A DNA stretch of 64,000 nucleotides from Oscillospiraceae bacterium. GTDB lineage: Bacteria > Bacillota > Clostridia > Oscillospirales > UBA929. The stretch covers positions 1 to 64,000 of the forward strand of contig WRAI01000006.1 of the NCBI GenBank assembly GCA_009780275.1. The letters are read 5' to 3'. Both the position numbers and the translations under genes were made by a program. Under the pieces are notes generated by a model, which was not told the origin of the DNA, made no database searches, and saw only the letters and a program-made list of their open reading frames with translations. Position 1 is the first letter of the stretch. Every line of letters starts with the position of its first letter. Below are positions 26,934-55,000 of the stretch, piece after piece.

Positions 26934-26945
26934 GATATGCCCTCC

Positions 26946-27059: not shown

Positions 27060-27075
27060 ACGCACGATTTAATTC

Positions 27076-33644: not shown

Positions 33645-33654
33645 GGGGGCGGAT

Positions 33655-34473
33655 ATGGAGGAAATTGTAGATAATCGTTATGGCTTGGTTAATGAGATAA
33701 CAGAGGCAATTACGAATCACCCGATAATTATGATTTTGATTGCATTGGCTATTGTTATCCTATTGCTGTTTATTTCACGGTCTGTTTTCAAGAACACGAA
33801 ATATGCTAGATTTGTTCAACAAAAAATTCTTGGAAATCCGTTTATATCTCTTTTTGCCATTTTGCTAACGATAGGATTAGCGACAATATGGATTTGGTGG
33901 GAGTTTGAGGACGAAATATCGCTAACGGCATGGAGCGTAATAATGAGTAGTGCCGTGGTTATTATGACTATAACATATAGCGTTATACAGTCAAAAAACA
34001 CTTTTCGGCAGCAAGCCGCATTCGCACAACTTGGGCTTATGCCTTGCCTGTATGTGACTACCTCAAAAAACACGGCCATATTAACTCTACCGAGCGGATT
34101 AAAGGAAAATCAACCATTCCGTCAGACGTTCAAGATTGAATGTATTAGCGAGTACCCTGCTTTCGATGTAAATTGGTTTTTATGGACAAGCCCAACCAAA
34201 CCCTACTTGTTTAGGGAATACGAAAAAAGCAAAGTGAAAATTCCTACTCCAACCTATACCCTTGTCAAAGGCAAGAGTTATCAAATTTCTCTCAACATAG
34301 AGAATGTGCATATGGAGCAAGTTTTGGTTGCTGAATATAAAGACATCAGTCGAAGTGAGTACACACAGATTTTTGCTTTGAAGTTAAATAAAGCATCGAA
34401 TGAATTTGATGTTGATGGAGTGGATTCCCCTACACCCATTCCAGTAAATGAGCGAAATGTAAAGAAACGATAA
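33655..34473 (+). CDS. Three-pass membrane protein, unknown, between mod and res
   Basis: 272 residues. Predicted membrane segments at about 23-42, 62-82 and 90-109, then a soluble C-terminal domain of about 160 residues with beta-type sequence. No family recognised. AAGGGGG lies before ATG 33655. It begins 10 bases after mod, so it is cotranscribed. With the next two it makes a membrane-anchored group interposed in a restriction operon. Confidence 0.7.
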   Translation: MEEIVDNRYGLVNEITEAITNHPIIMILIALAIVILLLFISRSVFKNTKYARFVQQKILGNPFISLFAILLTIGLATIWIWWEFEDEISLTAWSVIMSSAVVIMTITYSVIQSKNTFRQQAAFAQLGLMPCLYVTTSKNTAILTLPSGLKENQPFRQTFKIECISEYPAFDVNWFLWTSPTKPYLFREYEKSKVKIPTPTYTLVKGKSYQISLNIENVHMEQVLVAEYKDISRSEYTQIFALKLNKASNEFDVDGVDSPTPIPVNERNVKKR

Positions 34474-34506
34474 TAAAGCGTATTTACAAATTAGGGAGGA
34501 TGACTT

Positions 34507-35025
34507 ATGCCCGATGTAGTAATAACAGGATTGTTTTCATTGTTCGGTGCGATTCTTGGTGCTGTCACATCAATATTTGTCCTTAGCAGAACTATGAAAA
34601 AGAGCCTCCAACTTGAAATACAAAAAATAAACTTGCAAAAGGAGTCAGAGCTATCCATACGCTTATTGGACAAAAAGGAGGCTTATTTTGCGGAATTGCT
34701 GGTGGTTTTATCAACCGTAAGAAATGTGGCGATGGACTTTTGTGATTTTGGCTATACAGATGAAACAGAAACAAGTTTGCGACAAAGTAATGATGCAGTT
34801 TCTTTATACCTCAATTTATATGAAAAACGTAATATCCTTTATGTGCCGAAACAGATTCGCCACAAAGCGGCTGAAACATTGCATGGTTGGAAGTCATTTT
34901 GTACACGCGAAACTTCAAAGTGGAGCAAGGGAAATAGAGAAGATAGAGAACGTGATTATGAACATTTCATTTTGGAGGTCGAACATTTAGTCGAGGTCAT
35001 AAAAAGAGAAATCGGCAGAGTATAA
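34507..35025 (+). CDS. Single-pass membrane coiled-coil protein
   Basis: 172 residues. One membrane segment at about 5-27 (ITGLFSLFGAILGAVTSIFV), then a long charged helix (residues 30-65) and a helical tail. AGGGAGG precedes ATG 34507. It may multimerise through the coil. No family recognised. Confidence 0.65.
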   Translation: MPDVVITGLFSLFGAILGAVTSIFVLSRTMKKSLQLEIQKINLQKESELSIRLLDKKEAYFAELLVVLSTVRNVAMDFCDFGYTDETETSLRQSNDAVSLYLNLYEKRNILYVPKQIRHKAAETLHGWKSFCTRETSKWSKGNREDRERDYEHFILEVEHLVEVIKREIGRV

Positions 35026-35059
35026 CATCGAATGATGTTGTTGTAAGGGGAGATATGCT

Positions 35060-35590
35060 ATGTGTTTTGAATGGGATGTATTTTGGAGTGCTTTGTCCTC
35101 AATAGCAACAATAATTGCCGTTATTACAGCATTTGCGATTGTTAGGTACGACCATAAAATCAACAACCGTAAAAGAATAAAGATTGATTTTAAGCACATG
35201 ACAGGGCAGATAACATACGACGGTTTTCGAGAGGGAAGAACTGTTGACAGCATTTTGATTAAATTTATTAACACAGGCAATCGAAAAGTAATTATTGACG
35301 GTATCAAATTTTCGTTTCCCGATGGTCATTCATATAGCTTTCTGTATTTGTTAGCTGATAATGAGCAAGACATGAAACTACCTTGCGTTCTTGAAATAGA
35401 GGAGGCAAGGCAAATGATTATTCCTCTTTCCCATTTCGTCCGATTGGCAAAACACGCAAAGGAGTTAAACCGATTGAATGAAGAAATTGTCATTATAGCT
35501 ACCGACACAGCAGAAAAAGAGTATTGTTTCAAAACGGGGATAACTTATAAAATCTATTTCGATATGGAGGACGAAACAGATGAAACTTAA
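35060..35590 (+). CDS. Single-pass membrane protein with beta domain
   Basis: 176 residues. One membrane segment at about 10-28, a short basic linker, and a beta-rich domain with FINTGNRKVIIDGIKFSFPDG, a look shared by many Ig-like domains attached to membranes. AAGGGGAG precedes ATG 35060. The gene overlaps res by 11 bases. No family recognised. Confidence 0.65.
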   Translation: MCFEWDVFWSALSSIATIIAVITAFAIVRYDHKINNRKRIKIDFKHMTGQITYDGFREGRTVDSILIKFINTGNRKVIIDGIKFSFPDGHSYSFLYLLADNEQDMKLPCVLEIEEARQMIIPLSHFVRLAKHAKELNRLNEEIVIIATDTAEKEYCFKTGITYKIYFDMEDETDET

Positions 35591-38500
35591 ATTCAAAACC
35601 CAAGACTTCCAAACGGATGCTGTAAACGCCGTGGCAGACCTCTTTGCCGGACAAGACAAACAGACCACTACATTTTCCATCGTTGACGGAGAATCGGACG
35701 GTAATCAGTTGCGTGTCATAAACGAGTTTGGCATAGGCAATGTCTTGAACATACAGGGTAGCGATATTCTTGTGAACATGAACCGCATCCAAAAGCGGAA
35801 CAATTTACCCCGCACCAAAGACCTTTACCCTTTCGCCCATTATCGTGAGGGTGACAGGCGTTTTTGCATTGAAATGGAAACAGGCACAGGAAAAACCTAT
35901 GTCTACACTAAGACGATTTTTGAGTTGCATCGGCGATATGGTTTTACAAAATTTATTATCGTTGTGCCGTCCGTGGCAATCCGTGAGGGCGTGTATAAGT
36001 CATTCCAAATAACCACAGACCACTTCGGGGCGCATTATGACAATGTACCGTGCCGCTACTTCATTTACAATTCGGCGAAATTGTCCGATGTTCGCCAGTT
36101 TGCTACAAGTAATAACATTGAGATTATGATTATCAACATAGATGCTTTCAAAAAGGCCGAAAACATCATCAACCAAGCACAGGACAAGCTGAACGGCGAA
36201 ACAGCTATGAGATACATACAGGACACAAACCCTGTCGTAATCATTGACGAGCCGCAAAGCGTAGACAATACCGAAAAGGCAAAAGAGGCAATCGCAAGCC
36301 TTAATCCCCTTGTCGTTCTTCGTTATTCCGCTACGCACAGAGAAAAGACCAATTTGCTGTACAGCCTAACCCCTGTTGATGCCTACCAAAAAGGCTTGGT
36401 TAAGCAAATCGTTGTTTCCAGCAACACCGTAGACAATGCACACAATAAACCATATATCGCCCTAAAATCCGTATCTCGTGACGGCGGTTTTAAGGCGAGG
36501 ATAGAAATTGATATACAGGGCAATGGCGGGGTTGTGACCCGCAAGACTGTAACCGCAAAGCCCGGTGATGACCTTTATATTCTATCCGGCAGACGAGAAC
36601 TCTACGAGGGCTACCAGCTTTCGGGAATTGATGTAGCAGCAGGGCGAGAATACATCGAATTTTCAAACACAGAAACGCTGGCTCTTAACAAGACCATTGG
36701 CGGGGTGGATGAGGATGTGCTAAAACGCGCCCAAATCTTCCGCACGGTTGAGGCTCATTTAGACAAAGAATTGCGGTACTTGGAACATGAAATCAAAGTC
36801 CTTTCGCTGTTCTTCATTGATGAAGTGGCGAAGTACCGTACCATAGAGGGCGAAAAAGGCATATACGCCCAAATGTTTGAATCTTGCTACGCTGAACTGA
36901 TGAACAGGACAAAGTATGCCCCCCTCAAAACCCAATTCCCTGCCACCGTGGAAAGAGTCCACAACGGTTATTTTTCACAAGATAAAAAAGGTGTGTTCAA
37001 GAATACAAAAGGCGATACGCTGGCTGATGATGATACTTACAACACCATCATGCGAGATAAGGAATGGCTGTTGTCGTTCGAGTGTCCGTTACGGTTTATC
37101 TTCTCTCACTCGGCACTTAAAGAGGGCTGGGATAATCCCAACGTGTTCCAAGTTTGCACGTTGATTGAGCATAAGTCCACATTCACCCAGCGGCAGAAAA
37201 TTGGACGAGGGCTACGTCTTTGTGTAGACCAGCAGGGCAACCGCATAGAGGATAGAGAAATCAATATACTTCATGTCATGGCTAATGAGAGTTTTGCTGA
37301 GTTTGCGGACACCTTGCAAAAGGAAATCGAGGCCGAAACAGGCATTACCTTTGGTATGTTCCAAATCAGCTTGCTGGTGGGAACAACCTACGATGAAGAA
37401 GTCACCGTAGAAAAGACCGTGACCATCGAACAAGCCGCTGCCGCCGTGGAAACCTTAAAATCCACAGGCGTAATTGACGAAAGCGGAAAGATAGTCGCTA
37501 CTATCAAAACAAACGAAATAGATTTGCTCCCATTGCCGGAGCCTGTTAGAGCAGTTGTGTCAAACGCAATCGTAGCATCATTGACTTCCACTCAACAGCC
37601 TATTGCCATTGGAACCTTGTCGGGAGCGGCATACACCGAAACTATCACCGAAGAAAAAACAATATCCTACGATGATGCCGCAGAAATTATTGCCGACATG
37701 GAGGATAAAAAGCTAATCACCAAAGACAAAAAAAGCGGCAATTACAAAATGACCGACACCATGAAAAAACAGCTTGAAACAGGCACTCTTGATTTGAGTG
37801 AACGCCACAGCCAAGCAAAACAGAGAGCAATTATACAAGTCGCTCAACGTGCCAATGCAAAGGTGGTTATTCGTGATGAATCAAAGGAAGTTAAGGTTAG
37901 GCTGAAAAAGCAAGTCATGTTATCGCCCGAATTTATGGAAATTTGGGATAGAATCAAACAAAAGACCACATACAGGGTAAAGATAGACCATGAGCAGCTT
38001 ACGAAAAACTGCCTCAATGACTTTGCCAATATGCCAGCCATACCAAAGGCAAGGATTGTTACTCAATCGGCAGAAATCAACATTGAAAATGCTGGCGTAA
38101 CGCACATGGAAAGCGGCTTGCGAACCATTGACCTCAAAGACGATTATGAATCCTTGCCGGACATTCTTCATGTAATCGCAACAGAAACCCTGTTAAAGCG
38201 TTCCGATGTAGGGCAAATCCTCCGGCAGAGCAACCGTGGAGCAGACTTCCTAAACAACCCCCAAGCCTTTACTGAAAAGGCGTTAGATATAATTACCCGA
38301 AACCGACATAGCCTTGCGATTGACGGAATCAGTTACGTCAAACTGGCGGGGGAGGAATATTATGTTCAAGAAATTTTCGATAGCGCGGAGTTGACCGCAA
38401 ACCTTGACCGCCATGCTGTGAGTGTGAACAACAGCCTATATGACTACATTGACTGTGATAGCGGAACAGAGAGCCGTTTCGCCCAAAGTTTGGATAATGA

Positions 38501-38780
38501 CCCCGATGTAAAGCTGTTTTTCAAAATCCCCAGCCGTTTTAAGATTGAAACCCCCATTGGCACATATAACCCCGATTGGGCGGTGTACTTGGAACACAAC
38601 GGCGATAAAAAACTGTATTTCGTGCTTGAAACGAAAGGCACAACAAGCCTGTACGACTTGCGAACACCCGAACAGTTGAAAATCAAGTGTGGTAAGGCTC
38701 ATTTTGAGGCGTTGGAAAATGAAGTAGCGTTCCCTGCCGAGCCGGTAGCTGATTGGCGGGAGTTCAGAAGAACGATATAA
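35580..38780 (+). CDS. res: Type III restriction endonuclease subunit (Res)
   Basis: 1066 residues. SF2 motor: Walker A ETGTGKTY at 100-107, DEPQ at 223-226 for motif II, YSATHREK for motif III, HSALKEGWDNPNVFQVCTL and RQKIGRGLRL for motifs V and VI. C-terminal PD-(D/E)XK nuclease: D999, E1017 and K1019 in PDWAVY and VLETKG. Length and order match type III Res. With Mod it translocates and cuts DNA having two unmethylated sites in head-to-head order. The ATG at 35580 follows GGAGG. Confidence 0.93.
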   Translation: MKLKFKTQDFQTDAVNAVADLFAGQDKQTTTFSIVDGESDGNQLRVINEFGIGNVLNIQGSDILVNMNRIQKRNNLPRTKDLYPFAHYREGDRRFCIEMETGTGKTYVYTKTIFELHRRYGFTKFIIVVPSVAIREGVYKSFQITTDHFGAHYDNVPCRYFIYNSAKLSDVRQFATSNNIEIMIINIDAFKKAENIINQAQDKLNGETAMRYIQDTNPVVIIDEPQSVDNTEKAKEAIASLNPLVVLRYSATHREKTNLLYSLTPVDAYQKGLVKQIVVSSNTVDNAHNKPYIALKSVSRDGGFKARIEIDIQGNGGVVTRKTVTAKPGDDLYILSGRRELYEGYQLSGIDVAAGREYIEFSNTETLALNKTIGGVDEDVLKRAQIFRTVEAHLDKELRYLEHEIKVLSLFFIDEVAKYRTIEGEKGIYAQMFESCYAELMNRTKYAPLKTQFPATVERVHNGYFSQDKKGVFKNTKGDTLADDDTYNTIMRDKEWLLSFECPLRFIFSHSALKEGWDNPNVFQVCTLIEHKSTFTQRQKIGRGLRLCVDQQGNRIEDREINILHVMANESFAEFADTLQKEIEAETGITFGMFQISLLVGTTYDEEVTVEKTVTIEQAAAAVETLKSTGVIDESGKIVATIKTNEIDLLPLPEPVRAVVSNAIVASLTSTQQPIAIGTLSGAAYTETITEEKTISYDDAAEIIADMEDKKLITKDKKSGNYKMTDTMKKQLETGTLDLSERHSQAKQRAIIQVAQRANAKVVIRDESKEVKVRLKKQVMLSPEFMEIWDRIKQKTTYRVKIDHEQLTKNCLNDFANMPAIPKARIVTQSAEINIENAGVTHMESGLRTIDLKDDYESLPDILHVIATETLLKRSDVGQILRQSNRGADFLNNPQAFTEKALDIITRNRHSLAIDGISYVKLAGEEYYVQEIFDSAELTANLDRHAVSVNNSLYDYIDCDSGTESRFAQSLDNDPDVKLFFKIPSRFKIETPIGTYNPDWAVYLEHNGDKKLYFVLETKGTTSLYDLRTPEQLKIKCGKAHFEALENEVAFPAEPVADWREFRRTI

Positions 38781-38803
38781 AAAATCGAAGGAGTTGTGAA
38801 CTG

Positions 38804-40393
38804 ATGGGATACCGATTTACACTTGAATCAGCACATACAGTAGCCAACCTCACTTTCGGCAAGGTGCTTGCTTGTTTCCGTGAAATTCACAGCTCTGATG
38901 AAAGTTATTGGGGGTTTAGGGCTTTTCTCGACCAATTTAATGAAAATATGTTTTCTAATGAAAACGAGCGATACCACAAGCATATACGCCGTCTGCGTGA
39001 TTTGCTTGAAGGCAAGGACAGCAAGTATTACCATGACAAAAAACATTGGGATTTTTATGAAGATGATATATATAGGTTTAGAGAACTTAGACCTTACGAT
39101 GAAAAAGTATTGGAGGCTCTTAAAGGCTTATCTGATACGTTCTCACGGTGTAGGTTGAAATCCCTGCTATTGCCGAGAATAAGTGACGGAAACTACCGCT
39201 CCATAAAACGATGTATTGATGATGATTTTATGCTCCACACCGATACGTTGCACAACTTGGTGGAATACCATCCGGGTGATTCGTGCTTAATTTTACAACC
39301 AACCGAAAGACCGAGAGCGGTTACACTTTATGATGCCTTTCCAAACTTTGAAATAGCCGTTAGGCAACGCGATATATGGCCAGCGGTGATATTTTGGGAT
39401 GGGAGAGGCGAGTATGCTTTTATTCCAGTTGACGACAAAGGAGATTTGCGACATCTGTTCAAAATCATTCATTATGATAATTTATCCCTCCGTGAATTAA
39501 AAAACATAGCCCAACATAAAAAACGCCCAAGTCATTATATTCTGCATCTTAGTGATTTGCATTTTGGGGCTAAAAATGTTGATGTTACCGAACGCCGCTT
39601 AAAAAAGCTGATACAAAAGCAAGTTGCCAGCCTTGACGATAACGATAGCCTTGACTTTATTATTACAGGCGATATTTCAGATAGTCCCGACCAAAAAAAC
39701 GCCAACAGTTATCGTAATTTTTCAGAAGATATTGAAGAACGATATGGGAAAAAGCCTACTTGTGTTTTAGGTAATCACGACATTAACAAGAAAGGACTTG
39801 CTTTTTGGAAAGGAAAGCAGCACCTTGCGAATATTGTTGGGAACTATCCAATGATAAAAGTTTTAGAAGAACCCAAAGTCATTTTCTTACTATTTAACTC
39901 CAATACCGAGGGAAAGTTAGCACAGGGAGAAATAGGCTCGGCGCAAATGTCGGAAATGGGCAATTTGCTTGATGGTGTCGAGAACATAGAAAAATATCTG
40001 CTTATTGCTGTAATGCACCACCATCTTGTACCGATTTTACGACCAGAGCATTATGATGAACGATGGTACAGGCGAATAATTCCAAGAGGATTGTTGGATG
40101 AGGCTCTACGCCTTATAGATGCTGATGTTTTCATGGAGTGGCTTAAACGCAGAAACGTGAGGTTTGTACTCCACGGACATAAACATATCCCATTTCAAGC
40201 GGAACATGACGGAATCCAAATAATCTCATGCGGCTCGTCAACAGGGCAAATCGTTCACAAAGAGCGAGGAAAAACCTATATAAGTTACAACTTGATTAAG
40301 GTTAATCAAGATACCGTGACCTGTACATTGTTTGTTGAAGATATACTTGGGGCTGGGGCGGTAGATATTAAAGCCCCGCCGCCGATGGAGTAA
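38804..40393 (+). CDS. Calcineurin-like metallophosphoesterase with novel N terminus
   Basis: 529 residues. The C-terminal domain holds the full di-metal set: SDLHFG at 250-255, ITGDISD (GD 289-290), LGNHD (GNHD 323-326), VMHHH and HGHKH, so it should be an active phosphodiesterase or nuclease. The N-terminal 240 residues have no family that I know and may bind substrate or a partner. I chose ATG 38804, with AAGGAG 10 bases upstream, over an earlier in-frame start inside res. Phosphoesterases of this kind occur in nuclease pairs (SbcD, Mre11) and in defence loci; the substrate here is unknown. Confidence 0.82.
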   Translation: MGYRFTLESAHTVANLTFGKVLACFREIHSSDESYWGFRAFLDQFNENMFSNENERYHKHIRRLRDLLEGKDSKYYHDKKHWDFYEDDIYRFRELRPYDEKVLEALKGLSDTFSRCRLKSLLLPRISDGNYRSIKRCIDDDFMLHTDTLHNLVEYHPGDSCLILQPTERPRAVTLYDAFPNFEIAVRQRDIWPAVIFWDGRGEYAFIPVDDKGDLRHLFKIIHYDNLSLRELKNIAQHKKRPSHYILHLSDLHFGAKNVDVTERRLKKLIQKQVASLDDNDSLDFIITGDISDSPDQKNANSYRNFSEDIEERYGKKPTCVLGNHDINKKGLAFWKGKQHLANIVGNYPMIKVLEEPKVIFLLFNSNTEGKLAQGEIGSAQMSEMGNLLDGVENIEKYLLIAVMHHHLVPILRPEHYDERWYRRIIPRGLLDEALRLIDADVFMEWLKRRNVRFVLHGHKHIPFQAEHDGIQIISCGSSTGQIVHKERGKTYISYNLIKVNQDTVTCTLFVEDILGAGAVDIKAPPPME

Positions 40394-40433
40394 CGGCAAT
40401 GGGTTTGTACAAATTGTGCTTGGAGGGTGAAGA

Positions 40434-41705
40434 ATGGAATCATTCTTAATAATAGCAGTACCCATAGCCATTATCGCCGTGATTGCAGTAGTGGTGGTGT
40501 ATTTGAAGAAAAAAGCCAATTCTGAAAACAATCATGCTATGGATGAGAACGTGGAACTCGTGACCGTAGACGGCGGCGTTCCTATTCCCATTGAAAGAGT
40601 TACATCGTTGAGTTTGATTGATGAGAGCAGCTTAACAGAAATCACAGACAGCACCGTTGTTGCTCGAATAACGCAGACCATTCCGACAGTAGCGGAAAAG
40701 GCGGCGAAAACAGTCACGAACACGGCAATGAAAAAAGCTGATTTGTATAGGGTGATAATCCCAAACGGTGAAACCCTTGTACAGTCCAAGAGCATGACAG
40801 GGGCGTTTCGCGGGTTCTTTCGTGGAGCAAAAGGAGCGAAAGGTCATGCAAACTTAGTCAAGGTTGACCCATCCAAGATTACCAAAGCCTCAACCGTGGC
40901 GAACATAGGGGCAAACGTGATGAATGTTGGCTCTTTGGTTGTCGGGCAGTATTACATGAACGAGATAAACGCCAAACTGGAAACTATGAATAAAAACATC
41001 AGTAAAATAAGTGATTTTCAAGATAGGGAGTTTAAGAGCCGTATAATGTCCTTGATTGCTCTTGTCGGTGAGATTTCACAGTTTAGCGTTGAAATAATCG
41101 AAAATGACGAGTTGCGGACAATTAAACTGGCAGCGTTAGAAAATATGAAAGCAGACGGTACTGAATTGCTCGGACAAGTCAACGAAACGATAATTGGAAT
41201 TACGCAGGGCAACCCGACCCCCGATTACAAAGCATACCAAGCCACCGTTGAGGACTTCTATACTTTGGTTGAATATCAAAATATTTTGATAACAATCCTC
41301 GAAGAAATAAGCAAATTATCATACTTGCTCGGTAAAGGGAACAGTTCAAAGGATATGTGCTATTCCTTGTACAGCAAGTATTGGGAATTGTCAGTCCAAG
41401 CGAGAGATGTACTGGAATCATGGCATGACAAGCAAGTTGCCGCCCTTAAAATTGAGATTGACAGGAATAGGCTTGAAAAAAGCGGCGTGGCGGGATTTTT
41501 TGCACAAGTGCCAGCGTTGTTTGACGATAAATGGAAGTATAGGGATTTGAAACAAGGAATTGCTGATAAAATCACTCACCAATCCCAAACAAAGCCGCAA
41601 GCGGCGATTGAACAAAAAGCTGTTTACGACAGCGATGTGCCAATAGTAATTATGGACGGCAAATACTACTACCAACATGATGCACCCGCCACCGCAAAGG
41701 AGTGA
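40434..41705 (+). CDS. N-terminally anchored coiled-coil protein, unknown
   Basis: 423 residues. One strong membrane segment at 4-24 (LIIAVPIAIIAVIAVVVVYL), a short beta-type part to about 150, a small hydrophobic stretch near 155-170 (VANIGANVMNVGSLVVG) and a long helical part with coiled-coil pattern to 380. The beta-type part is followed by RGAKGAKG. No family recognised. GGAGGG precedes ATG 40434. It lies between a phosphoesterase and a possible DNA glycosylase, so a membrane location for the module is suggested. Confidence 0.6.
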   Translation: MESFLIIAVPIAIIAVIAVVVVYLKKKANSENNHAMDENVELVTVDGGVPIPIERVTSLSLIDESSLTEITDSTVVARITQTIPTVAEKAAKTVTNTAMKKADLYRVIIPNGETLVQSKSMTGAFRGFFRGAKGAKGHANLVKVDPSKITKASTVANIGANVMNVGSLVVGQYYMNEINAKLETMNKNISKISDFQDREFKSRIMSLIALVGEISQFSVEIIENDELRTIKLAALENMKADGTELLGQVNETIIGITQGNPTPDYKAYQATVEDFYTLVEYQNILITILEEISKLSYLLGKGNSSKDMCYSLYSKYWELSVQARDVLESWHDKQVAALKIEIDRNRLEKSGVAGFFAQVPALFDDKWKYRDLKQGIADKITHQSQTKPQAAIEQKAVYDSDVPIVIMDGKYYYQHDAPATAKE

Positions 41706-41709
41706 ACGC

Positions 41710-42432
41710 ATGAAACAATACCTACTGGATTATATTCGCCGCCCCATCCCGCAGGGCGTTCCTATCGTGCCGCAGTCCATACCGATTGTTTTCTTTGGTG
41801 ATATTGACAAGGCTAAATATGCTACCATTGCTATAAACCCAAGCAATAGAGAATTTACCAATACCAAGCATGAAATATTCCCGACAAATAAAAAGCGGTT
41901 TGTAGACAGGGATTTCCTTGGAGCGGCTGATGATGAAACACTTAGCTTAGAGCAAGCAGAAATGGTATATCAATCACTCTGTAACTTCTTCCACAAAAGA
42001 CCTTATATGCAATGGTTCGGGCAATTAGAGAAACTTTTTAACGAGGCAGATTTATCATACTTTAAGGGCGATATTATTAACCTTGACATATCGCCGTGGG
42101 CTACCAGCGTGAAGTGGAGTGCCTTGACCGATGAGCAGAGGGTTGGGTTGGTTCGCCACGGCGGGGATTTGCTACGAACGATTCTGAACGCCGGACAAAT
42201 AAAATGCCTGTTTGTGAATGGTCGAACTGCAATGAAATACGTTGAGAAACACATTGCACCTTTAACGAGCCATTGTTTTATTCAATTAAATGCGAGTTGC
42301 GAAATCAAGGTCGGCAAGATAGGCAACCTCACTATCGTTGGGTGGAGTAATTATCTGCAACAGCTAAGACCGCCGCTTTCACAAGACAAAAGAAAATTAT
42401 TGGTAGATAAAATACTCGAACTGGCTTTGTAA
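41710..42432 (+). CDS. Possible uracil-DNA-glycosylase-fold protein
   Basis: 240 residues. TIAINPSNREF (43-NPS-45) recalls the UDG motif 1 loop GINPG, and CLFVNGRTAMKYV recalls the strand and turn before motif 2 of the superfamily; DISPWATSVKWSAL lies between. The last motif (HPSP or HPS) is not obvious, as WSNYLQQLRPP stands there. I chose ATG 41710, after AAGGAG, over a frame that begins inside the previous gene. If the fold is right it may flip out bases; activity is not established. The endonuclease-III-like gene follows by 19 bases. Confidence 0.5.
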   Translation: MKQYLLDYIRRPIPQGVPIVPQSIPIVFFGDIDKAKYATIAINPSNREFTNTKHEIFPTNKKRFVDRDFLGAADDETLSLEQAEMVYQSLCNFFHKRPYMQWFGQLEKLFNEADLSYFKGDIINLDISPWATSVKWSALTDEQRVGLVRHGGDLLRTILNAGQIKCLFVNGRTAMKYVEKHIAPLTSHCFIQLNASCEIKVGKIGNLTIVGWSNYLQQLRPPLSQDKRKLLVDKILELAL

Positions 42433-42451
42433 TACATTCGGCGGGAGGTGT

Positions 42452-44125
42452 ATGGATATGGATGCAGTTCTACTGCGAGAAAACTTCAAACGCTACTTAG
42501 CAGAGCGTTTTCCAAACGATAATTATATCGGTGTCCATGTGTCGGATGCTTTTTACCTCATACGGCATGAGGATGATTTTGGCATGAAGTTTGAGCAGAT
42601 ACTGGCAGATGGCTTTATCCCCGAAACATACAGACCGTGGCTCGAAGAACGGTTTACCAAGAGAGGCGTTCAAAACCCCCGCGGCAATGCGGCGGGGTAT
42701 GAGAAAGCGTTTGATTTGCTTTTGGATTACTACCACAACAGACCATACGACCAACAGACTGCACCCAAGACCCTGCCGCCGCCCACTACATCCATTGACA
42801 CGGCGCAGCTACGGAAAAAATTTCAAGCCCATATGCAACAACGGTTTCCAAAAAATCCGAGCATAGGTTCAACCGTGTCGGGAGCGTTCTTCCTTGAACG
42901 AAAAGGTAATAATTTGGGTTTCGATTTTCAGCAGATTATTGTTGATGGCATCATTCCCGAAACATACAGAGCAAAAATCCAAAAATACTTTGAATCTCGT
43001 GGACGGAAAAATCCTCGCGGCGATGCTTACATTTACGAGCGGTCATTACGCCTTTTATTGGAGTTCATCAGCGGAAACGAGCTACCGATGAGCAAGCCTA
43101 CGCCACCTCCTATAACTGTACCACCCACCGAAAAAGCAATTATGGTGCAAAGGGTTGGCAAATGGCTTGTGAAAATGGGATTGGAGCGTTTCGCCCAAAA
43201 GTCCGAGCATCCGTGGGTACACCTAACAGGCAAAGATGAATATGATGCCGTGCTTAACGATTTGGAAAACACCCCTCACGCTTTTGTGCTTGCTTGTCTT
43301 ATGGATAGAGGCGTTAAGGCAGAGCGGGCGTGGGCTGTGCCTTGCATAGTCATGGCGAAGTATGGGGCAAATATTCATTCGTTGAACGCCGTGAGCGAAG
43401 ATGAGTACATATCATTCTTCCAACAAAATTCCCTGCATAGGTTTCACAGAGAAATGGCGGTTATATTCAAGGGCGGTGTTCAGAGGATTGTAGAAAAGTT
43501 TGACGGCGATGCCTCGCTGATGTGGAAAGGCAAACCGGGCAGTAAAACGGCGGTTAATCACTTTTTAGCTTTTCGTGGGGCTGGCGAAAAAATAGCGACT
43601 ATGGCTGTAAATATCCTCGTTCGCCAATTTCAAATTGAGTTGGCTGATTTTAAGGCGATTGATGTATCGCCCGATGTGCATATATGCAGGGTAATGTATC
43701 GCATGGGGCTGATTGAGAGCGATAAGGACACAAGAGCCGCCATACGCTGTGCGAGGGAATTGCACCCCGACTTCCCCGGTATTATTGACTTTTCATTGTG
43801 GGAAATTGGGCGGAATTATTGCAAGGCGAAAAATCCGCTTTGCGGCGAGTGCATTGTAAAAAACGATTGTGTCAAACGCTTGGGAGGGGAGGTACTGTTT
43901 CGTGACCCCCCTGCCCAAAAAATAATAGAATCAATTTATTCCGAAGATGAACTAAGCGAGGCACTACGAGCGATTAAGTCACTTATTGGCAAATGTGAAA
44001 AGGCATATGTGCAGTTGATTGACAGTACGCCACAGCACACGTTGATGCAGAGGCGGCTGGCAGCTCTTAAAATTTCTGCTGATTTGATTGAAAAGGAAAT
44101 GAGCAATAAACCCGATATAGTATAG
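42452..44125 (+). CDS. Endonuclease-III-like DNA glycosylase with duplicated N-terminal domain
   Basis: 557 residues. Two repeats of about 85 residues (7-94 and 119-206), both with F-x-x-Y/H...RFP, IPETYR and NPRG, are followed by a linker and an HhH-GPD domain (230-480). FRGAGEK holds K380 where Nth has its catalytic lysine, and PDVHICRV holds D408 where Nth has its catalytic aspartate. Cys 457, 464, 467 and 473 make the C-x6-C-x2-C-x5-C loop of the 4Fe-4S cluster. This looks like an active bifunctional glycosylase/AP lyase. The N-terminal repeats are new to me. GGAGG precedes the start. Confidence 0.83.
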   Translation: MDMDAVLLRENFKRYLAERFPNDNYIGVHVSDAFYLIRHEDDFGMKFEQILADGFIPETYRPWLEERFTKRGVQNPRGNAAGYEKAFDLLLDYYHNRPYDQQTAPKTLPPPTTSIDTAQLRKKFQAHMQQRFPKNPSIGSTVSGAFFLERKGNNLGFDFQQIIVDGIIPETYRAKIQKYFESRGRKNPRGDAYIYERSLRLLLEFISGNELPMSKPTPPPITVPPTEKAIMVQRVGKWLVKMGLERFAQKSEHPWVHLTGKDEYDAVLNDLENTPHAFVLACLMDRGVKAERAWAVPCIVMAKYGANIHSLNAVSEDEYISFFQQNSLHRFHREMAVIFKGGVQRIVEKFDGDASLMWKGKPGSKTAVNHFLAFRGAGEKIATMAVNILVRQFQIELADFKAIDVSPDVHICRVMYRMGLIESDKDTRAAIRCARELHPDFPGIIDFSLWEIGRNYCKAKNPLCGECIVKNDCVKRLGGEVLFRDPPAQKIIESIYSEDELSEALRAIKSLIGKCEKAYVQLIDSTPQHTLMQRRLAALKISADLIEKEMSNKPDIV

Positions 44126-44152
44126 TATTTGAGTGTGTGGAGGATAAAGCTG

Positions 44153-45367
44153 ATGGACGAACTTATCATAAATAATTTGCTGGTGACGGCGGGTAGCATC
44201 ATTGACAAATATTCTGCCATCGCTCGTGAAACTGGTAGAAGTTTTAACATCTTTGAGGTTGCTCGTATTGAGGATAAGGAAGTAATCGTTTGCCGTATAT
44301 TAGCCGAATTATTGAATCCCAAAGGACGGCACGGACAAGGCGGCGCATACCTTGAATTATTTTTGAGCGAATGTTGCGACATGGGCGATGCTCTTTCCGA
44401 TGCCGAAATTGAAAATATGCAAGTAGCGGCAGAACGCATGACAGACAAAGGACGGCCTGTTGACTTGGTTATTGAGGGAAACGGACGATGTATTCCTATT
44501 GAAGTGAAAATTTACGCCGCCGACCAATCCGCACAATGTTATGATTATTGTATGTATGCCCGAACGAAAGATAGTGAGGCTCGAATTATTTACTTAACCC
44601 TCTTTGGAGAAGAACCGTCAGATGACAGCAGGGGCAAATTATCAGATGATGATATAATTTTTATGTCGTTTGATGTTCATATTTTACGGTGGCTTGAAAA
44701 ATGCCTCGCCCTACCCGACACAATCAGAAAAACCCCGCTTCGAGAAATACTCATTCAATTTATTTCTGCAATAAGGAACATCACAAATAACTTGGAGGAT
44801 AAGCCCAAAATGGAACTTATAAAATTGTTATCTGAATCACCCCAACATATGCGTAATGCGAAAGTCATTGCGGATACTCTTGACGAATGTAGGTTTGAAA
44901 TAGCAACCAAGTTTTTCACCGCTTTCCATGAACGGTTTGGCTCAAATTTTGAGAGCGAACCGCTTGAAAGCGATTTTGTAAAATGGGGAAACAGCATTAA
45001 CGCCGAGATAAGATATATGTTTGAAAAGGATGTTGTGCCGGGCGTGTCTGTAATTTTTATTTTGAATATGTCAAACTACGACCCCCTCTTAGCTGGGTTT
45101 GGCATGATTCGGGAGGGTGAATCGGCACGACTTGGCGATAGAAATATTGTTAAAAAGTTGAGAACGCATTATGGAGTTGAAGAAAAGAAATCCTCTGCTC
45201 ATTGTGTAGTGTATGAGTATATTTCTTTTGAGGACGATTGGATTAACATGACAAATTTTAACGGCAGCTACGAAAATTATTTTAAGTTGTTTGACCCAAA
45301 AACTTTCGAGGAAATATTAGATAGCACCGTTAAACAGGCAAACGCAGTCCTTGCCAAACTTAAATAG
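44153..45367 (+). CDS. PD-(D/E)XK nuclease-family protein
   Basis: 404 residues. FNIFEVARIEDKEVIVCRILAELL and GRHGQGGAYLELFL are the opening of the PDDEXK_4 family; the active site is D104, E117 and K119 (PVDLVIEGN, IPIEVKI). The rest is helical with no known domain. ATG 44153, after GGAGG, is preferred to a TTG at 44129. The stand-alone family is frequent in defence islands, but its targets are unknown. Confidence 0.8.
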   Translation: MDELIINNLLVTAGSIIDKYSAIARETGRSFNIFEVARIEDKEVIVCRILAELLNPKGRHGQGGAYLELFLSECCDMGDALSDAEIENMQVAAERMTDKGRPVDLVIEGNGRCIPIEVKIYAADQSAQCYDYCMYARTKDSEARIIYLTLFGEEPSDDSRGKLSDDDIIFMSFDVHILRWLEKCLALPDTIRKTPLREILIQFISAIRNITNNLEDKPKMELIKLLSESPQHMRNAKVIADTLDECRFEIATKFFTAFHERFGSNFESEPLESDFVKWGNSINAEIRYMFEKDVVPGVSVIFILNMSNYDPLLAGFGMIREGESARLGDRNIVKKLRTHYGVEEKKSSAHCVVYEYISFEDDWINMTNFNGSYENYFKLFDPKTFEEILDSTVKQANAVLAKLK

Positions 45368-45383
45368 GAGGGAATAATTCATT

Positions 45384-46214
45384 ATGAAAAAACAAGAAAT
45401 CGTAAACGTACAAGGCACGGCGGTTGCCGTCCTCACCCACAGGGAAGATGATTACATATCTCTGACCGACATGGCGAAGTATAAAAATGCCGATACGACA
45501 GGGCTTGTAATTTCCCATTGGATGAGGACAGGCTATACTCTAAATTTCTTGGGTGCATGGGAACAACTCAACAACCCAAATTTTAATGTTACCGATTTCG
45601 GTAACATTAAAATGGAGAGCGTGGACAATAGCTTTATTATTTCCACAAAACAATGGGTGGAGCGAACAGGAGCAATCGGAATTATCGCAAAGCCCGGACG
45701 TTACGGCGGCACATATGCTCATCGTGACATTGCTTTCGAGTTCGCCACTTGGTTAAGCCCCGAATTTAAGCTGTACTTGATTACCGAGTTCCAGCGTTTG
45801 AAACAAGAGGAACAAGGGCGGCTTTCGCTCGAATGGAATCTGCAACGCACTTTGTCAAAAATCAATTATCGAATCCATACGGATGCCGTGAAAGAGCGGC
45901 TCATTCCCGAAGAAATAACCAAGCAACAAGCCTCGTATGTCTACGCCAACGAAGCCGACCTTTTGAACGTGGCACTCTTTGGAAAGACGGCATCACAATG
46001 GCGGGCAGAAAATGCGGGTAAAGAGGGAAATATGCGTGACTACGCAACGCTTGAACAGTTGGTTGTTCTCTCAAACATTGAAAGCATAAACGCATTATTG
46101 ATACGGCAGGGACTTTCCCAATCCGACAGGCTACGACAACTGAACAACACCGCCATATTGCAAATGAAGTCCCTTGTCGGTGCATCACTTCAAAAAAGAC
46201 TCACACAGAAGTAA
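45384..46214 (+). CDS. KilA-N domain protein
   Basis: 276 residues. KilA-N fold: DDYISLTDMAKYKN, VISHWMRTG, FIISTKQWVERTG, RYGGTYAHRDIAFEFATWL. The C terminus is a helical tail. KilA-N occurs in phage regulators and phage antirepressor-like proteins and binds DNA. As last gene of the run it may be an effector, a regulator or a phage relic. GGAGGG precedes ATG 45384. Confidence 0.88.
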   Translation: MKKQEIVNVQGTAVAVLTHREDDYISLTDMAKYKNADTTGLVISHWMRTGYTLNFLGAWEQLNNPNFNVTDFGNIKMESVDNSFIISTKQWVERTGAIGIIAKPGRYGGTYAHRDIAFEFATWLSPEFKLYLITEFQRLKQEEQGRLSLEWNLQRTLSKINYRIHTDAVKERLIPEEITKQQASYVYANEADLLNVALFGKTASQWRAENAGKEGNMRDYATLEQLVVLSNIESINALLIRQGLSQSDRLRQLNNTAILQMKSLVGASLQKRLTQK

Positions 46215-46472: not shown

Positions 46473-47906
46473 TTACCGCTCCGTGCGGTCATTGGCTCTG
46501 CCAATTTCAGCATCACGGTAATCCAGTAGTTGGTGAACATTTTGCTGTGCCATTAGAATCTCTTGCATATGGTTTCGGGCGGCAGAGTAACCAGCATACA
46601 GCTTTTTCTTCTCGGCGGTCAGCGTGGCATACTCCTGTTTTAGAGAGTTGATGGTCGGCAACTTCGCCAGCCCATTCTCGTCAAAGAACGCTTTGGCAGC
46701 TTTACAATCTTCAATGGCTTTTTCGTTCTCGGCATAGAATTTTTTGCTGAATTTACGGCGCTTGTATTCGGCGTAAACATCTTTGGTCTTAACGTAAGTG
46801 CCGATGTGTTTTTGCATGGGCGGTATCTCTTTCAAGCGTTCATCAGCGGCGTGGATGCGGGTTTGCAAATCGTTAAAATCGCCTTTGGCTTTTTGTGCTG
46901 CCTCGGACAACTTCTCTAAATCGTCAAGGTCATTATCCTGTAAAAACATGAGGGTCTTGGCGGCTTGTTTGAGATTGAAAACCTTAGACCACCGCTCGTA
47001 CCCCGGCGAATTTTGAGCCTTGATAGAGTTCTGCACATCAATGAGCAAGCTAAACTTTCGCTCTTGTGGTGCAGGGGCAGTTTTGACAGGGGGCGGTGCA
47101 TCGGCGGTTGGAGTTTCACGCATGGGAGCGGAACGCAATCCAGCGATTCTTTCCTTGATGGCATCCTCGGTGTAATCCTCGGACAAGCCTTTGAGCCGCA
47201 GGAAACACCGCTTGCCCGGTAGTCGCACAGAGCGGCGTGAACGCTTAAATTCGCAATTTTCATCCTCCAACAGCTTGATAAATTCCTCGAAAGTGGCAGG
47301 GTTATGTTGGAGTGCTTTTTCGATAAACTGTTCCAGCAATTCACGAGCGGACGGCTCTTTTTTGCTACCCAGCCAATCCGCATAACTTCCACGGCTGGGC
47401 TTGGGGTTTTCGATAACGGATAATCCGTTTTCTAAGCACACAATATCGCACATTCTACGCAATGCACGAGTTGACCCCCAAAAGTTTTTGAATTTCTTAT
47501 CGGTGTTGAGGTTTACTGCGTTGTACATGATGTGGCAATGGATATGCCCTTTATCTTCGTGGGTGGCAACGACAAACTGATGATTACCTTTCGTCCACCG
47601 CAGGGTCATATCGTGACAGAGTTTAGCCGCATCTTCGGGAGTTATCTCACCCGGCTTGAACGATATTCTGATGTGGTAGAGTAAAACATCTTTTTTATTT
47701 GCCGCTGTGCCGATGCTCTTATCATAATCCTGCTTGTTGAGCAAAAAGTCTAAATAATGAGTGCGAGGGTCGCAACCGTGAGTGCTTATCAATTCGCCGT
47801 TTCTTGTCTTGCTGGGATTTGTGATGTAGTGCAAGCTATCGGCAAAAGTTTGAACAGTCGTTTTGCCTTTCTTGGCTCTGATTGGTTTTATCCATGTTGC
47901 CGCCAT
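46473..47906 (-). CDS. Conjugative relaxase
   Basis: 477 residues. The MobP-type relaxase core: the N-terminal SLHYITNPSKT with Tyr, the HUH triad HEDKGHIHCHIMYNAVN near residue 130 and FKNFWGSTRALRR. The C-terminal half is helical and coiled. It nicks the transfer origin and stays bound to the 5' end by a tyrosine. AAAGGAGG precedes ATG 47906. Confidence 0.92.
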   Translation of the reverse strand: MAATWIKPIRAKKGKTTVQTFADSLHYITNPSKTRNGELISTHGCDPRTHYLDFLLNKQDYDKSIGTAANKKDVLLYHIRISFKPGEITPEDAAKLCHDMTLRWTKGNHQFVVATHEDKGHIHCHIMYNAVNLNTDKKFKNFWGSTRALRRMCDIVCLENGLSVIENPKPSRGSYADWLGSKKEPSARELLEQFIEKALQHNPATFEEFIKLLEDENCEFKRSRRSVRLPGKRCFLRLKGLSEDYTEDAIKERIAGLRSAPMRETPTADAPPPVKTAPAPQERKFSLLIDVQNSIKAQNSPGYERWSKVFNLKQAAKTLMFLQDNDLDDLEKLSEAAQKAKGDFNDLQTRIHAADERLKEIPPMQKHIGTYVKTKDVYAEYKRRKFSKKFYAENEKAIEDCKAAKAFFDENGLAKLPTINSLKQEYATLTAEKKKLYAGYSAARNHMQEILMAQQNVHQLLDYRDAEIGRANDRTER

Positions 47907-49029: not shown

Positions 49030-52000
49030 TCAGAGTGTAGTTTCTTTCTTTTGGGTCGGAGCATCGCCGCCGCCAAACTCGGCTCTGCTCTTTTGTGCGT
49101 ATCGTTCGAGGTCATCAAGCATGGACGGTCTACCTTTTGCTGAGTTGGACTTCGCCGCAACACGGTCATTAGTTCTGCCAGCCTTGCTAACATAACTAAC
49201 AGGGGCGATTTTCAGCACATCGTCCAAAATCCGTATGGTGTCTTTTTCGGCAGGGATAAAATATCTTGTTTGATACCCTATCCGTTCGGTGAACAATCCT
49301 TTTTTCGTCAGTAAATCATTATGAAGAAAATCAGCACCGATGACCTCTATTCGTTGCTCATTGGACACCCGCCGCTGGACGATTCGCCAATCGTTATCAA
49401 GGTAGACTGTATCGCCGCTTTTAATGTTTTTCAACAAGTCCACCGTTTCGATTTTTTCCTTTTCCCTCGTAGCCCCCAGCTTTTCCAACGTGGCATCAAT
49501 GGCATCTTCGGGTATGACCCTACCGATGAGTAAATCACCGTCAGAAGTAAGAACACGATAAATCCGCACGTTTTCAATGGGGAGTTTATCCCATACAGGC
49601 AACACCGTACCGCCAATCAAGTGTAGATTGTTGGTACGAAATTCGGGCAGTTCAGAAACAGCCTTATCCCAAAGTTTTTCGGCGGTTTCGGGAGTGAGTT
49701 TATTCCAGTTTCCCATCAGTCTGCCGAGGGGCATATACTCGTTACCGTCTTGCCCTGTAAGTCTGCAATTCTCGGTTATATTGCCGTGTTCATCGGTTAC
49801 AGATGAAGTTTTGAACGCCGCTCTAACCGCTCCTGTGTTCTTGCTTTGGTAAAAGCCGATAAAGGCAGAGTTATCGGTTTTGATGTTCTCAAACTCTAAC
49901 GGCTTTATTTTGTTGTGGGTAGTGAGGTTGAAATACTTGGTTGTTGCCCCTGTGCTTTCATCGGCTCGAATATCGGTGACTTCGTTCAACACAACCTTAT
50001 CAGCCTTGAAGTTTTCAAGCCCACGGTCAAGTGTGCCATCTTGCAAGGCTTTCTCGGTGGCAATATGCAGCCGCTCGGCGTAGCCGTCAAAGACAGCGTT
50101 CTGCTCGTTACATTCAAGGGAAAGGATGCGATTCAAAAACTTGTTGACCTCACGCATTTCATTTGCCGTAACAATGATTTGACCGTACTCGTCAACCAGC
50201 TTGTCCTTTAAGCCCAGCTTTTCAATGACTGCCATGCCGTCCTCTACACCCTCAACACGATTGAGGATTAAAGACTTGTAATATCCCGCCAGCACATCAG
50301 CCGCAAAAGCATTTTCCAAGTTATCTCCGGCGGTGAACAGCCCTTGACTGCCAGTTTGCCGTTGCCCTTTCGTCAAAGCCCCAAGCTGGTCTAACCGCTT
50401 GGCGATGGTGGAAATGAAACGCATTTGCCCCTTTAAGTCCGTTGTCACGAGCGAAAACGTAGGCGAGGACACTTGGTTGCTCCTGTGGGAACGCCCAAAG
50501 CCCTGTACCGCCGCGTCAGCTTGCCAGCCCGCTTGCAAAAGATAATGAACACGGTGCTGTTGGTTCTTAGCCGACTTGTCAGCGTGATAACTTTTGCCAG
50601 TTCCCCCTGCTCTTGAAAAAACGATGATACGCTTATCACCGTCTTGGAACGCCGAAACATCGGCTTGCTTTTTGGAGGCGATGTTTTCCTCTCTCGCCTT
50701 GCCGTCAGTAACGACAACACGCCGCTTTCGTCCTGTGTTCTCGGCTACCATATCGCTCCCGAAATGGTTGATAATCATATCAAGAGCGGATGCGGGTACT
50801 TTGATACTGCCTAACTTGTCGAGCAGCTCGTCCTTTTGTTTAACTGCCTCACGGTTGATTACAGCGTTGCCCTCGCTGTCAAAGACTGGCCGACTGCGTT
50901 CATTGCAGTTTTCGTCCTCGTACTTTTCAAATTGCACGGTAGGAAATGAGTTTTCGATATAGGACATCAGCATCTGCTTAGGGGTCAAGTCAAAATCTTC
51001 GAGGTCAAGTTCATGTTCTTGCAATCGAGCAAACTCCCGCTCCTGTGCGCTTTCATTGGTACTCACAAGCTGGATTACCACGGAATTGTCATTGTCCAAC
51101 TGCTTTTGAATATCGGCAATCATGCTCGGCACTTGCATGGCAGTAAGGATTTGATTGAAAAAGCGTTGCTCCGCACTCCAAAAAGCACCGTAAGCCCTGC
51201 CTTTCGCCGTGCCGTCCTTGTCTTGGTTGGTCGTTTTTAATGCGGCGTTCAAGTTTTGGAGAACAACTTGCCAAGACCGCGCTAACTCGTCATATATCTG
51301 CCGCTGGTTGGGTGTGAGTTCATGGACGATTTTATCGTAGGCAACATCCTCGTAGCTGATATTGCGGGAAAGATACACGCCCATCGCTTTCATATCTCTT
51401 GCAATGAGTTCCATTGCGGCAAGTCCTCCGGCTTTGATTCTGTGAACAAAATCGTCACCGTTGGGGAACGCCGTACCCTCGCCCCACAAACCCAGCCGCT
51501 CGGCATACCGTAGGTTTTCCACTTCGGTTGCCCCGGTTGCGGAGGAATAAATGATTTTCGCGTTCGGTAGAGCATCCTGTATGGCAAGCCCCGCCATACC
51601 TCGCTGGCTGGCTTTTTTGATACCCCTGTTGCCTTTGCTGGCGGTGGAGTTCGCCATGTTGTGCGCCTCGTCAAAAACAATTACGCCGTCAAAATCCTTT
51701 CCGAGCCAGTTCACAATCTTTTCAAAGTTTGAATCGCTTTGGTCGAAACCCTTTGATAAAGCAGAATAGGTAGCAAATAAAATAGCCTCGTCATTGCTCA
51801 ACGAGGCATCCGCTTTTTTACCACCCTCAAATTCCGTCACTAAATCGGAGTTGCCGAATAACGCCGTAACATCACGTTTTGCATCCGGCACTAAGCCCCT
51901 GTTTTCACTTAGCCACACGGCTTTTTTATTGCCTTGATTGAAGTTATCCAAGATAATCCCTGTAACCGTGCGCCCCTTGCCTACGCCTGTGCCGTCACCT

Positions 52001-55000
52001 AAGAAGAATCCCCTTGTGTTGCCATTGGGGAGGGTTTGTTTATGGCTTTGCCCTGCGTATGTGACCGCCTCTAACTGCACATCAGACAAAATACCATTGC
52101 TGATTATATCTTGACTTAGAGTAGGCTTGTAGGTAACAGGTGGCGGCTGTATCGCACTCATAGCCGCACTCTCGCTGATGTTGGCGGGGTGGGGCTGTAC
52201 GTTTGTAAGCAGTAGCGGTTGCGGCTCGTAGTTCTCAAAAATGCTGTCGGTGAGTTCTGTTTTAACAGGCTTTGGCGGCGTTAGCCGCGGCTCAATACTC
52301 CCAAGAGATTGTCCGCTAACAGCATCGTCAACTCGTCCAAATTCAGGGTTGACATCATTTCGTCCGTCATTTCCTCTATGTCGTTCTCCGTGGACGATTG
52401 GTGCAAGCCCATCATCGCCGACACTTGCAGGGTCGGGTGGAGTTGAGGGAGTTCCGTCAGATACTGCACCAAGTTCTGATGTAGTGGTCTGCTCTCGTCC
52501 AGTTCCACCAACTGCGGTATCAGTTCTGCCGCTTGGAGCAAATACAGACTCATCGGGCTTGCGTTCCGGCTCTCGCTCTGTAATAGTTTCAGAGCGTGTT
52601 GGTGTAGCGATGATTCGTTCATGTCCACTATCAATTTCAATGCTTGGTCTATCATTCCGAATACCTCCCAAGATATTTTGTAGGTCGGTCAAGTTTTCGA
52701 TAAAAGCGGTCTTTACAGGCTCGACAGTAGCACCGTTCTTGTCTATGACAAGCACTTGTATTCCAAAGGTTGTGCCGTATTTGTTGTAGTTCTTGCCGTC
52801 TACGCCAATGTTCGCCTTGACGTTGTACTGAGCCTTGATGTCACGCCACCAACTGCGGAAAGCGGGAGCATCATCAGCCATTCCTTGCCCGACAATGGCA
52901 ACCAATCGTCCGTTGGGAGCAAGCATCTTTAATGCCTCGTCAATGTGCTTTGCCCCGATTTTCGTGTCGTGGATGTTACGTTCAGCCGATGAAGAAAACG
53001 GCGGGTTCATAACAATGACCGTAGGCTCTAATTTATCACCGTGGATGTTGTTGATTTGCTCGGCATCTTCATTGAAAAATCCGTCAAAAGGTAGATTTTT
53101 AAGGATTTCAAGCCTACGTTTGTCGAGTTCGTTGACGAATACCGTTGCACCGTCTTTCTTGGCAAAAACCGCAATGCCGCCAATTCCGGCGGAGGGTTCA
53201 AGCACAACATCGTCTGCGGTCACGTTCGCCGCCCAATTCGCAAGGTACGCAATGCTCGGCGGGGTAGAGAATTGTTGAAACTTCTCCATTTCAGCGGTGC
53301 GACGGGTCTGTGTGGGGAACAATTCAAGAGCGTTCATCATGCTTTCATGTGAGAGGTTGTCAACCGATAACACATACTGATTCACGCCGAGTTCCATTGC
53401 ATCGTAGGCATCTTTTGAGGTAAAGGCGTTGTTTGCCATCGTATCGCCGTATGCCTGTGTTGCCGCCGCAAAAAGTTCCGCACTTGTAAACCTTTCGCCA
53501 TTTTCCAGTTTGGACTGTACAAAGGCGGCTATTTCCGTTGTCGGGGATGTGGCAGCTTGTACGGTGGTGATTTCATTGACTTGCGGTGGGTCTGTAATTT
53601 CCAAAGATTCGTCATAAGCCCTGCCGATTGCAACGGCGGCATCCATCATTCGTTGTAAACTTGCCTCTGCTGATTCTCGTAATTCGTCAAAGTTTTCAAT
53701 GCCGTATGCCGTCAACTCGTCAATTACGGACTGAGGTACGTTTTCCTTTGTGATTACTACCTCGCCATCAGCGTGAACACGGCCAACAATATCAATTTCA
53801 TCGGGGTCTATATCGTTGAACACGATTATCCTGTCGGGGTCGGATAAAAACCGATAACTAAGGGAGTATTCAGCGGCGGTGTCTTGTTGCGGTTCATCTT
53901 CTGTAATGCTTAATTGCGGTACAGCCTCATGGACGGTAACATCATCCATGCCATGTCGCACAGCAACCCCGAAACCCTCACTCACAAGGCGGTCAACATA
54001 TCCATCAAGTGCGTGTGCGGGAACACCTACGAGCGGCACACGTTCGTCAAGTCCTACGTCACGCCCGACAAGGGCAAGGTTAAGGAATTTCGACACAGCG
54101 TTGGCATCGCTACCCATTACCTCATAAAAGTCACCCAGCCGATAAAATAGGATTTTATCTTTATGCTCGTTGGCAATGGCGGTGTAGTCCTGCCACATCG
54201 GACTGCCCTGCGGTTCAAGCGAGTTATCCGAAACATCCAATAGAGGTTTGCCCTCATGGACGATATTGCCCTCTATGCCGTACCCAACTGCAACACTTCT
54301 TCCATCGTTAGTAAAGCGTTCAATATATTCGTCAAGAGCATGGAGGGGGATGCTGATATAGGGTTGATACTCAGCCAATCCAAAATCGCCCATTACAAGT
54401 GTTAATTCATACTGCTTTGATAAAACGTGTGCATCTTCACCAATGGCATAGAAATAGCCGCCGCCATGCTTTAATGCGATTTTATCTTGATGTTCGCCGG
54501 AAAGGGCTTGATACTCCCGCCACAATTCATTACCCTGCGGCGTTGCAATTTCAGCTTGCAGGGCTTGCTTGTGAGCATCAAGAACGCTCATATAATTTAC
54601 CCGCACATCATCATCGGATAATTCGCCGTTGCGGTAGGCGTTCATTTGCTCCCACACATCACGAGGGATATTTGTTGCCCCTGTTATATCGCCCCACGGA
54701 GTAATGCCTGTTGTGGTGGTGATATAGGTGTAATCGCCCATCTTGCCTACGGCATATTCCACACCGTCCTTGTTATAGCCAATCTTGTCACGGTCTTGGT
54801 ATAGGTTCATATCAAAATCGTGCTGTGCAGCTTGCCAATCTACAAAGAAAACAGGCGGTGGACTGCCTTGTGAGGTTACGCTTGCAGTTTCGGGTTGCAT
54901 TTCGGACGGTTGCTCTGTTTCCTGTGCTTGGGGCGAAACTTCGGCGGCACGAGGCGTAACTGTGGTAAAGACAAACTCTACGTCGTCAATCGTTTCTGTG

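Follow-up and report, generated by a model that had tools for sequence, protein, structure and literature searches.

An endonuclease III-like DNA glycosylase with orphan tandem repeats, adjoining a probable UDG-superfamily gene in a defence island of an Oscillospiraceae bacterium

Gene content and defence setting of the locus

The window analysed in this study is a stretch of 64,000 nucleotides from an Oscillospiraceae bacterium (GenBank assembly GCA_009780275.1, contig WRAI01000006.1, positions 1 to 64,000 of the forward strand). An open reading frame of 557 aa with an ATG start occupies exactly 42452-44125 (+), and the sequence GGGAGG lies upstream of its start. It forms part of a co-directional run of genes (27389-46214) separated by small intergenic gaps, with small membrane-like proteins encoded between the genes for the type III methyltransferase (Mod) and restriction subunit (Res). 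The gaps between the UDG-like, HhH, PDDEXK_4 and KilA-N genes at the end of the run are 19, 3 and 16 bp, respectively. The original prediction had placed the glycosylase in a defence run, and this setting proved genuine: type III Mod and Res, AbiJ, an SNF2/DrmD-like helicase, a metallophosphatase and the candidates PDC-S26 and PDC-S22 were all identified (Table 1). The divergent WYL/WCX gene is a candidate regulator of the island.

The GC content of the island (0.39-0.47) is lower than that at 2-16 kb (0.54-0.58), which is consistent with acquisition of the island. No tRNA-Ser attachment repeats of 20 bp or more were found. Elsewhere in the window, a 2587-aa protein (49030-56793, -) with MutS_I-like, AAA_34 and strawberry-notch helicase C-terminal domains adjoins an ArdC_N/DUF3849/YodL protein (57009-60362), a pairing typical of large mobile elements.

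Table 1. Features of the glycosylase gene and of the surrounding island (positions in the window)
Feature	Position	Strand	Basis or remark
Integrase	20005-21228		frames island region
WYL/WCX regulator, divergent from island operon	25953-27065	-	domain search
SNF2-type helicase, partial similarity to DISARM DrmD	27389-29974	+	domain/PADLOC searches
AbiJ_NTD3 + Abi_C abortive-infection protein	29971-30927	+	domain search
Type III methyltransferase (Mod)	31752-33644	+	PADLOC search
Type III restriction subunit (Res)	35580-38780	+	domain/PADLOC searches
Calcineurin-like phosphoesterase, weakly similar to anti-phage phosphoesterase DS9_1	38753-40393	+	domain searches
423-aa protein, N-terminal hydrophobic segment, no family match, between phosphoesterase and UDG-like genes	40434-41705	+	
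Probable UDG-superfamily protein, 251 aa, putative partner	41677-42432	+	TIGR04274; AINPSNREF motif; relatives L062, L064, L096
Two N-terminal repeats + HhH-GPD/Fe-S glycosylase + small C-terminal helical domain	42452-44125	+	ORF, domain searches, relatives
Repeat 1, aa 8-93, with IPETYR and NPRG	42473-42730	+	self-comparison with repeat 2
Repeat 2, aa 120-205	42809-43066	+	self-comparison with repeat 1
HhH-GPD glycosylase domain with Fe-S loop, aa ~225-482	43124-43897	+	TIGR03252, nth, family profile
K380, predicted Schiff-base lysine, in GAGEKIA	43589-43591	+	Nth alignment; kept in 9/10 family members
D408, predicted catalytic Asp, in SPDVHI	43673-43675	+	Nth alignment; kept in 10/10
Fe-S loop C457-C464-C467-C473	43820-43870	+	PF10576; kept in 10/10
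C-terminal ~60-aa domain, aa ~495-553	43934-44110	+	matches to stand-alone or tandem small proteins
PD-(D/E)XK nuclease-fold protein (PDDEXK_4; PADLOC candidate PDC-S26), 3 bp downstream of glycosylase gene	44129-45367	+	
KilA-N domain protein (PADLOC candidate PDC-S22)	45384-46214	+	
Relaxase	46473-47906		frames island region

Catalytic domain of the 557-aa protein

The protein had been described as an endonuclease III-like glycosylase preceded by two repeats, with its catalytic and Fe-S residues in place. These parts of the description hold; the C-terminal domain, an insert between the catalytic residues and the adjoining UDG-like gene had been left out of it. The architecture is new among the genomes and sequence sets examined, while the chemistry is of a known kind.

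Alignment with endonuclease III (Nth) of the same genome and of relatives places K380 on the lysine of GVGRKTA and D408 on the aspartate of ADTH. The Fe-S motif reads C-x6-C-x2-C-x5-C and passes the PF10576 cut-off (23 bits against 20.5). All six residues can be read directly from the protein. K380 and D408 are spaced 28 residues apart, which amounts to an insert of about 10 residues relative to Nth. The corresponding lysine and aspartate of Escherichia coli Nth are 18 residues apart. Across ten aligned family members D408 and the four cysteines are invariant, and K380 is kept in nine, being replaced by Gln solely in the most distant relative (L048). Loss of K380 or D408 in close homologues, which had been named as evidence against the prediction, was looked for and not seen. 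This retention of catalytic and Fe-S residues supports the earlier view of a likely active enzyme; judged by its sequence, the 557-aa protein is probably an active HhH-GPD/Fe-S DNA glycosylase of the EndoIII type, carrying the residues that base removal and AP-lyase nicking require.

The closest named families were matched below their curated cut-offs. The glycosylase domain matches TIGR03252 with an E-value of 2.5e-13 (48-50 bits; cut-off 136.5) and TIGR01083 (nth) with 1.6e-5 (22-25 bits; cut-off 211.7). All ten family members match TIGR03252, the best with an E-value of 2e-19. A family profile built from nine relatives, with the window protein left out, gave the window protein 291 bits and a Tsukamurella TIGR03252 protein 63 bits; the three HhH-GPD enzymes of the host genome scored 28 (its own Nth), 23 and 14 bits. 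The protein thus shares with Nth the HhH motif GxGxKxA, the catalytic aspartate and the Fe-S loop, but differs from it in profile score, in the Lys-Asp insert and in its extra N- and C-terminal domains. The Tsukamurella protein, in contrast, has neither a lysine in register nor the Fe-S cysteines. By these comparisons the family is a sister of TIGR03252 that carries Nth-like catalytic and Fe-S residues and is distinct from both Nth and MutY. It is rare and patchy: of the 398 genomes sampled from the same phylum, two gave a strong match.

N-terminal repeats and C-terminal domain

The original prediction of a duplicated domain of about 85 residues with IPETYR and NPRG motifs was borne out. The repeats are 86 aa each, align without gaps, share 39 of 86 residues (45%; pairwise E 2e-28) and both contain the two motifs. 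At the DNA level they are 57% identical, and the codon is shared at only 19 of the 39 identical residues, which points to an old duplication. The repeat had been called unfamiliar, and we found no significant match to it in Pfam, PHROGs or PDB sequences, although a domain that has no match in these collections need not have a new fold. Nor were relatives found in phages, plasmids or viral contigs (the last also scanned by DNA pattern), in 97 relatives, or among the genomes sampled from the order (394) and from the phylum (398). A match to a housekeeping repair family, which would have spoken against the prediction, was likewise looked for, and none was found. The repeats are also absent from every relative found of the glycosylase family. 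By sequence comparison they are therefore an orphan domain, seen solely in the 557-aa protein among the sets searched. Two candidate matches were rejected: Crov588 (E 2e-5, PDB sequences), a repetitive protein whose score adds up many repeats that are each below significance, and phage terminases, which were matched weakly (E 0.06 or worse).

The AlphaFold model of the full protein has a mean pLDDT of 44.7, too poor for structure search. In this low-confidence model the repeats are all-helical. By eye, the repeats may resemble SAM-like DNA-binding domains of integrases. Most likely they would contribute DNA binding or target selection.

The C-terminal domain (pattern EELxEALRxISSxISKCEKA...GTSQHTL...RIKALxIS) finds matches among short proteins of many genomes from the same order and phylum. 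There it makes up an ORF by itself, of about 62 aa (L003, L028), is present in tandem copies (L005, L031) or forms the tail of another protein (L010).

The upstream UDG-like gene

The gene for the 251-aa neighbour ends about 20 bp upstream of the glycosylase gene; an alternative start at 41710 would remove its overlap with the preceding gene. No Pfam match was obtained for this protein. The sole NCBIfam match across its four-member family is TIGR04274 (DNA-deoxyinosine glycosylase), found in two of the four, with a best E-value of 8.3e-4 in one relative and of 0.075, far below cut-off, in the window protein. In a search of 1510 frames with a family-6 UDG profile, the window protein and its Leptospira relative were the first outsiders, at non-significant E-values of about 0.3-0.4. 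Comparison with UDG alignments by hhalign was weak (probability <10%). The structure model has a pLDDT of about 45, and TDG/MUG recur in its structure search at Z-scores of about 5, not above unrelated folds. The protein has a motif, [AS][IL]NPSN (here AINPSNREF), which we take to resemble the GINPG-type motif of MUG/TDG. Together these sequence signals suggest with fair confidence that the neighbour belongs to the UDG superfamily, and a UDG fold is likely.

Three relatives of the neighbour were found, on a Leptospira interrogans plasmid (L062), on a phage contig (L064) and in a genome (G493) where the gene lies among IS elements and near an N6-methylase. On the phage contig (L064:4861-7676) and the plasmid (L062:7018-9579) the gene order is thymidylate synthase, UDG-like gene, aGPT-Pplase3 (ADDT), possibly a mobile cassette for base modification or defence.

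Genomic contexts of glycosylase relatives

Relatives of the HhH glycosylase in Brachyspira are stand-alone, single-domain chromosomal genes, found in several genomes at syntenic positions between ordinary genes. Their neighbours, in conserved order, are proC-, thrC- and ispG-like ORFs (names assigned by eye). Two further relatives (L066, L067) lie on contigs classed as viral, near head and portal-like genes. A phage contig with 7-deazaguanine genes (L068, 2636-6693) encodes QueC, a preQ0-type transporter (Vut_1) and a ParB-like protein; next to these genes, on the opposite strand, lies a stand-alone HhH glycosylase gene of the family. One family member (G211/L047:6790-12118, -) is apparently truncated by an in-frame TAG and overlaps the gene for a 1606-aa ATPase with weak similarity to Cap4-nuclease and NACHT.

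Comparison with known base-excision systems

Anti-phage DNA glycosylases were first described in 2024 and, as far as the available excerpts of the reports extend, those reported so far belong to the UDG superfamily. It has been shown that Brig1 excises alpha-glucosyl-hmC and Brig3 excises 5hmC as a means of phage defence, both being UDG-superfamily enzymes that leave abasic sites, and Brig2 is reported to be active against phages with modified thymine (excerpts of PMC11078745, PMC13160076). The locus described here shares with these systems the logic of base excision and a setting in a defence island, and its UDG-like gene probably encodes a member of the same superfamily, a likeness drawn at superfamily level. 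The 557-aa protein, however, is an HhH-GPD and not a UDG-superfamily enzyme, and the same excerpts report no HhH partner for Brig.

An aGPT-Pplase system and a UDG both figure among the predicted, unvalidated systems of DefensePredictor (PMC13092281). The operons of thymidylate synthase (TS), UDG-like gene and aGPT-Pplase3 around the Leptospira plasmid and phage relatives of the neighbour resemble the predicted systems of this kind, whereas the window has no TS or aGPT-Pplase gene and its UDG-like gene is followed by an HhH glycosylase.

Possible function

We tentatively favour the reading that the HhH glycosylase belongs to a base-excision module of the mobile defence island, probably working with its UDG-like neighbour, although we would put its probability somewhat short of even. 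The active-site lysine and aspartate are kept; the island is rich in defence genes, its co-directional genes lie close together, and a divergent WYL regulator, an integrase and a relaxase are near; the neighbour shows UDG signals, with two relatives in operons of TS and aGPT-Pplase3 and a third among IS elements near an N6-methylase; and the HhH family is rare and patchy. These observations, together with the precedent of the Brig enzymes, argue for the module. A defence function of the glycosylase is plausible from sequence, and the argument for it draws largely on the UDG-like gene next door. Excision of modified phage bases, as the original prediction proposed, is a candidate activity of the protein. 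The pair is seen as an excision module by analogy with the Brig glycosylases, from sequence and gene order, and we infer in this way its joint action, its substrate, its anti-phage role and the role of the repeats. One or both enzymes would act on incoming DNA and excise a base that is non-canonical or modified. The HhH enzyme could nick the resulting abasic site by its AP-lyase activity, or supply a second specificity, and the nicked site might then stall replication or let other nucleases of the island act. The more specific proposal of a two-glycosylase immune module, in which a UDG-like enzyme and an HhH-GPD lyase form a dedicated pair for base excision and strand nicking, and the tandem orphan domain guides the latter to DNA that is modified or foreign, is considerably less probable.

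Several points weaken the base-excision module: the pair was seen at one locus alone, the Brachyspira relatives sit among ordinary genes, the HhH enzyme is also encoded by a phage that has queuosine-type genes of its own, both structure models have a mean pLDDT of about 45, and a place in a defence island is indirect evidence. What is seen in Brachyspira favours the main and strong rival, which is that the protein is an accessory DNA-repair glycosylase carried as cargo, removing ordinary oxidised or deaminated bases either as a passenger of the island or as a protector of the mobile element while it is transferred. Among well-placed relatives, the closest are these single-domain chromosomal genes with conserved order, and TIGR03252, to which the family is related, is named as a base-excision repair protein. 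Yet the host genome is already supplied with three HhH-GPD enzymes and a UDG, the glycosylase family is sporadic in distribution, and repair would account neither for the repeats fused to the enzyme nor for its UDG-like neighbour and its defence setting; we regard this rival as somewhat unlikely. More doubtful still is a role of the HhH protein chiefly as an AP lyase or as a sensor of AP sites, setting off killing or signalling by effectors of the island (AbiJ, PDDEXK_4), while the bases would in fact be removed by the UDG-like protein. Such a role would suit the tight operon of UDG-like, HhH, PDDEXK_4 and KilA-N genes and the presence of a lysine for AP-lyase chemistry, but the stand-alone relatives of the glycosylase have no such partners, and Brig1 immunity is described in the available excerpt as independent of host Nth, XthA and Nfo (PMC11078745).

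Base-excision restriction enzymes exist (PMC10273834, PMC4357717), and the type III Mod and Res of the same island raise the question of an R.PabI-like restriction glycosylase, in which the tandem repeats, which could fit a sequence-reading role, would read unmethylated sequence, the HhH domain would excise a normal base, and Mod would protect self DNA. The likeness lies in a glycosylase encoded near a DNA methyltransferase. The island Mod, however, already has a Res of its own, and R.PabI belongs to the HALFPIPE superfamily, a different fold from HhH-GPD. The catalytic domain of the 557-aa protein matches HhH-GPD, and no HALFPIPE match was found for the protein in PDB sequence searches. This reading is very improbable.

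If the preferred base-excision module does act on phage DNA through the 557-aa protein, base-excision immunity would extend to the HhH-GPD superfamily and would gain an enzyme that can follow excision with a nick, and the orphan repeat would acquire a testable role in target choice. Given the link of the neighbour family with genes for thymidylate synthase and aGPT-Pplase3, modified thymine suggests itself as a candidate substrate.
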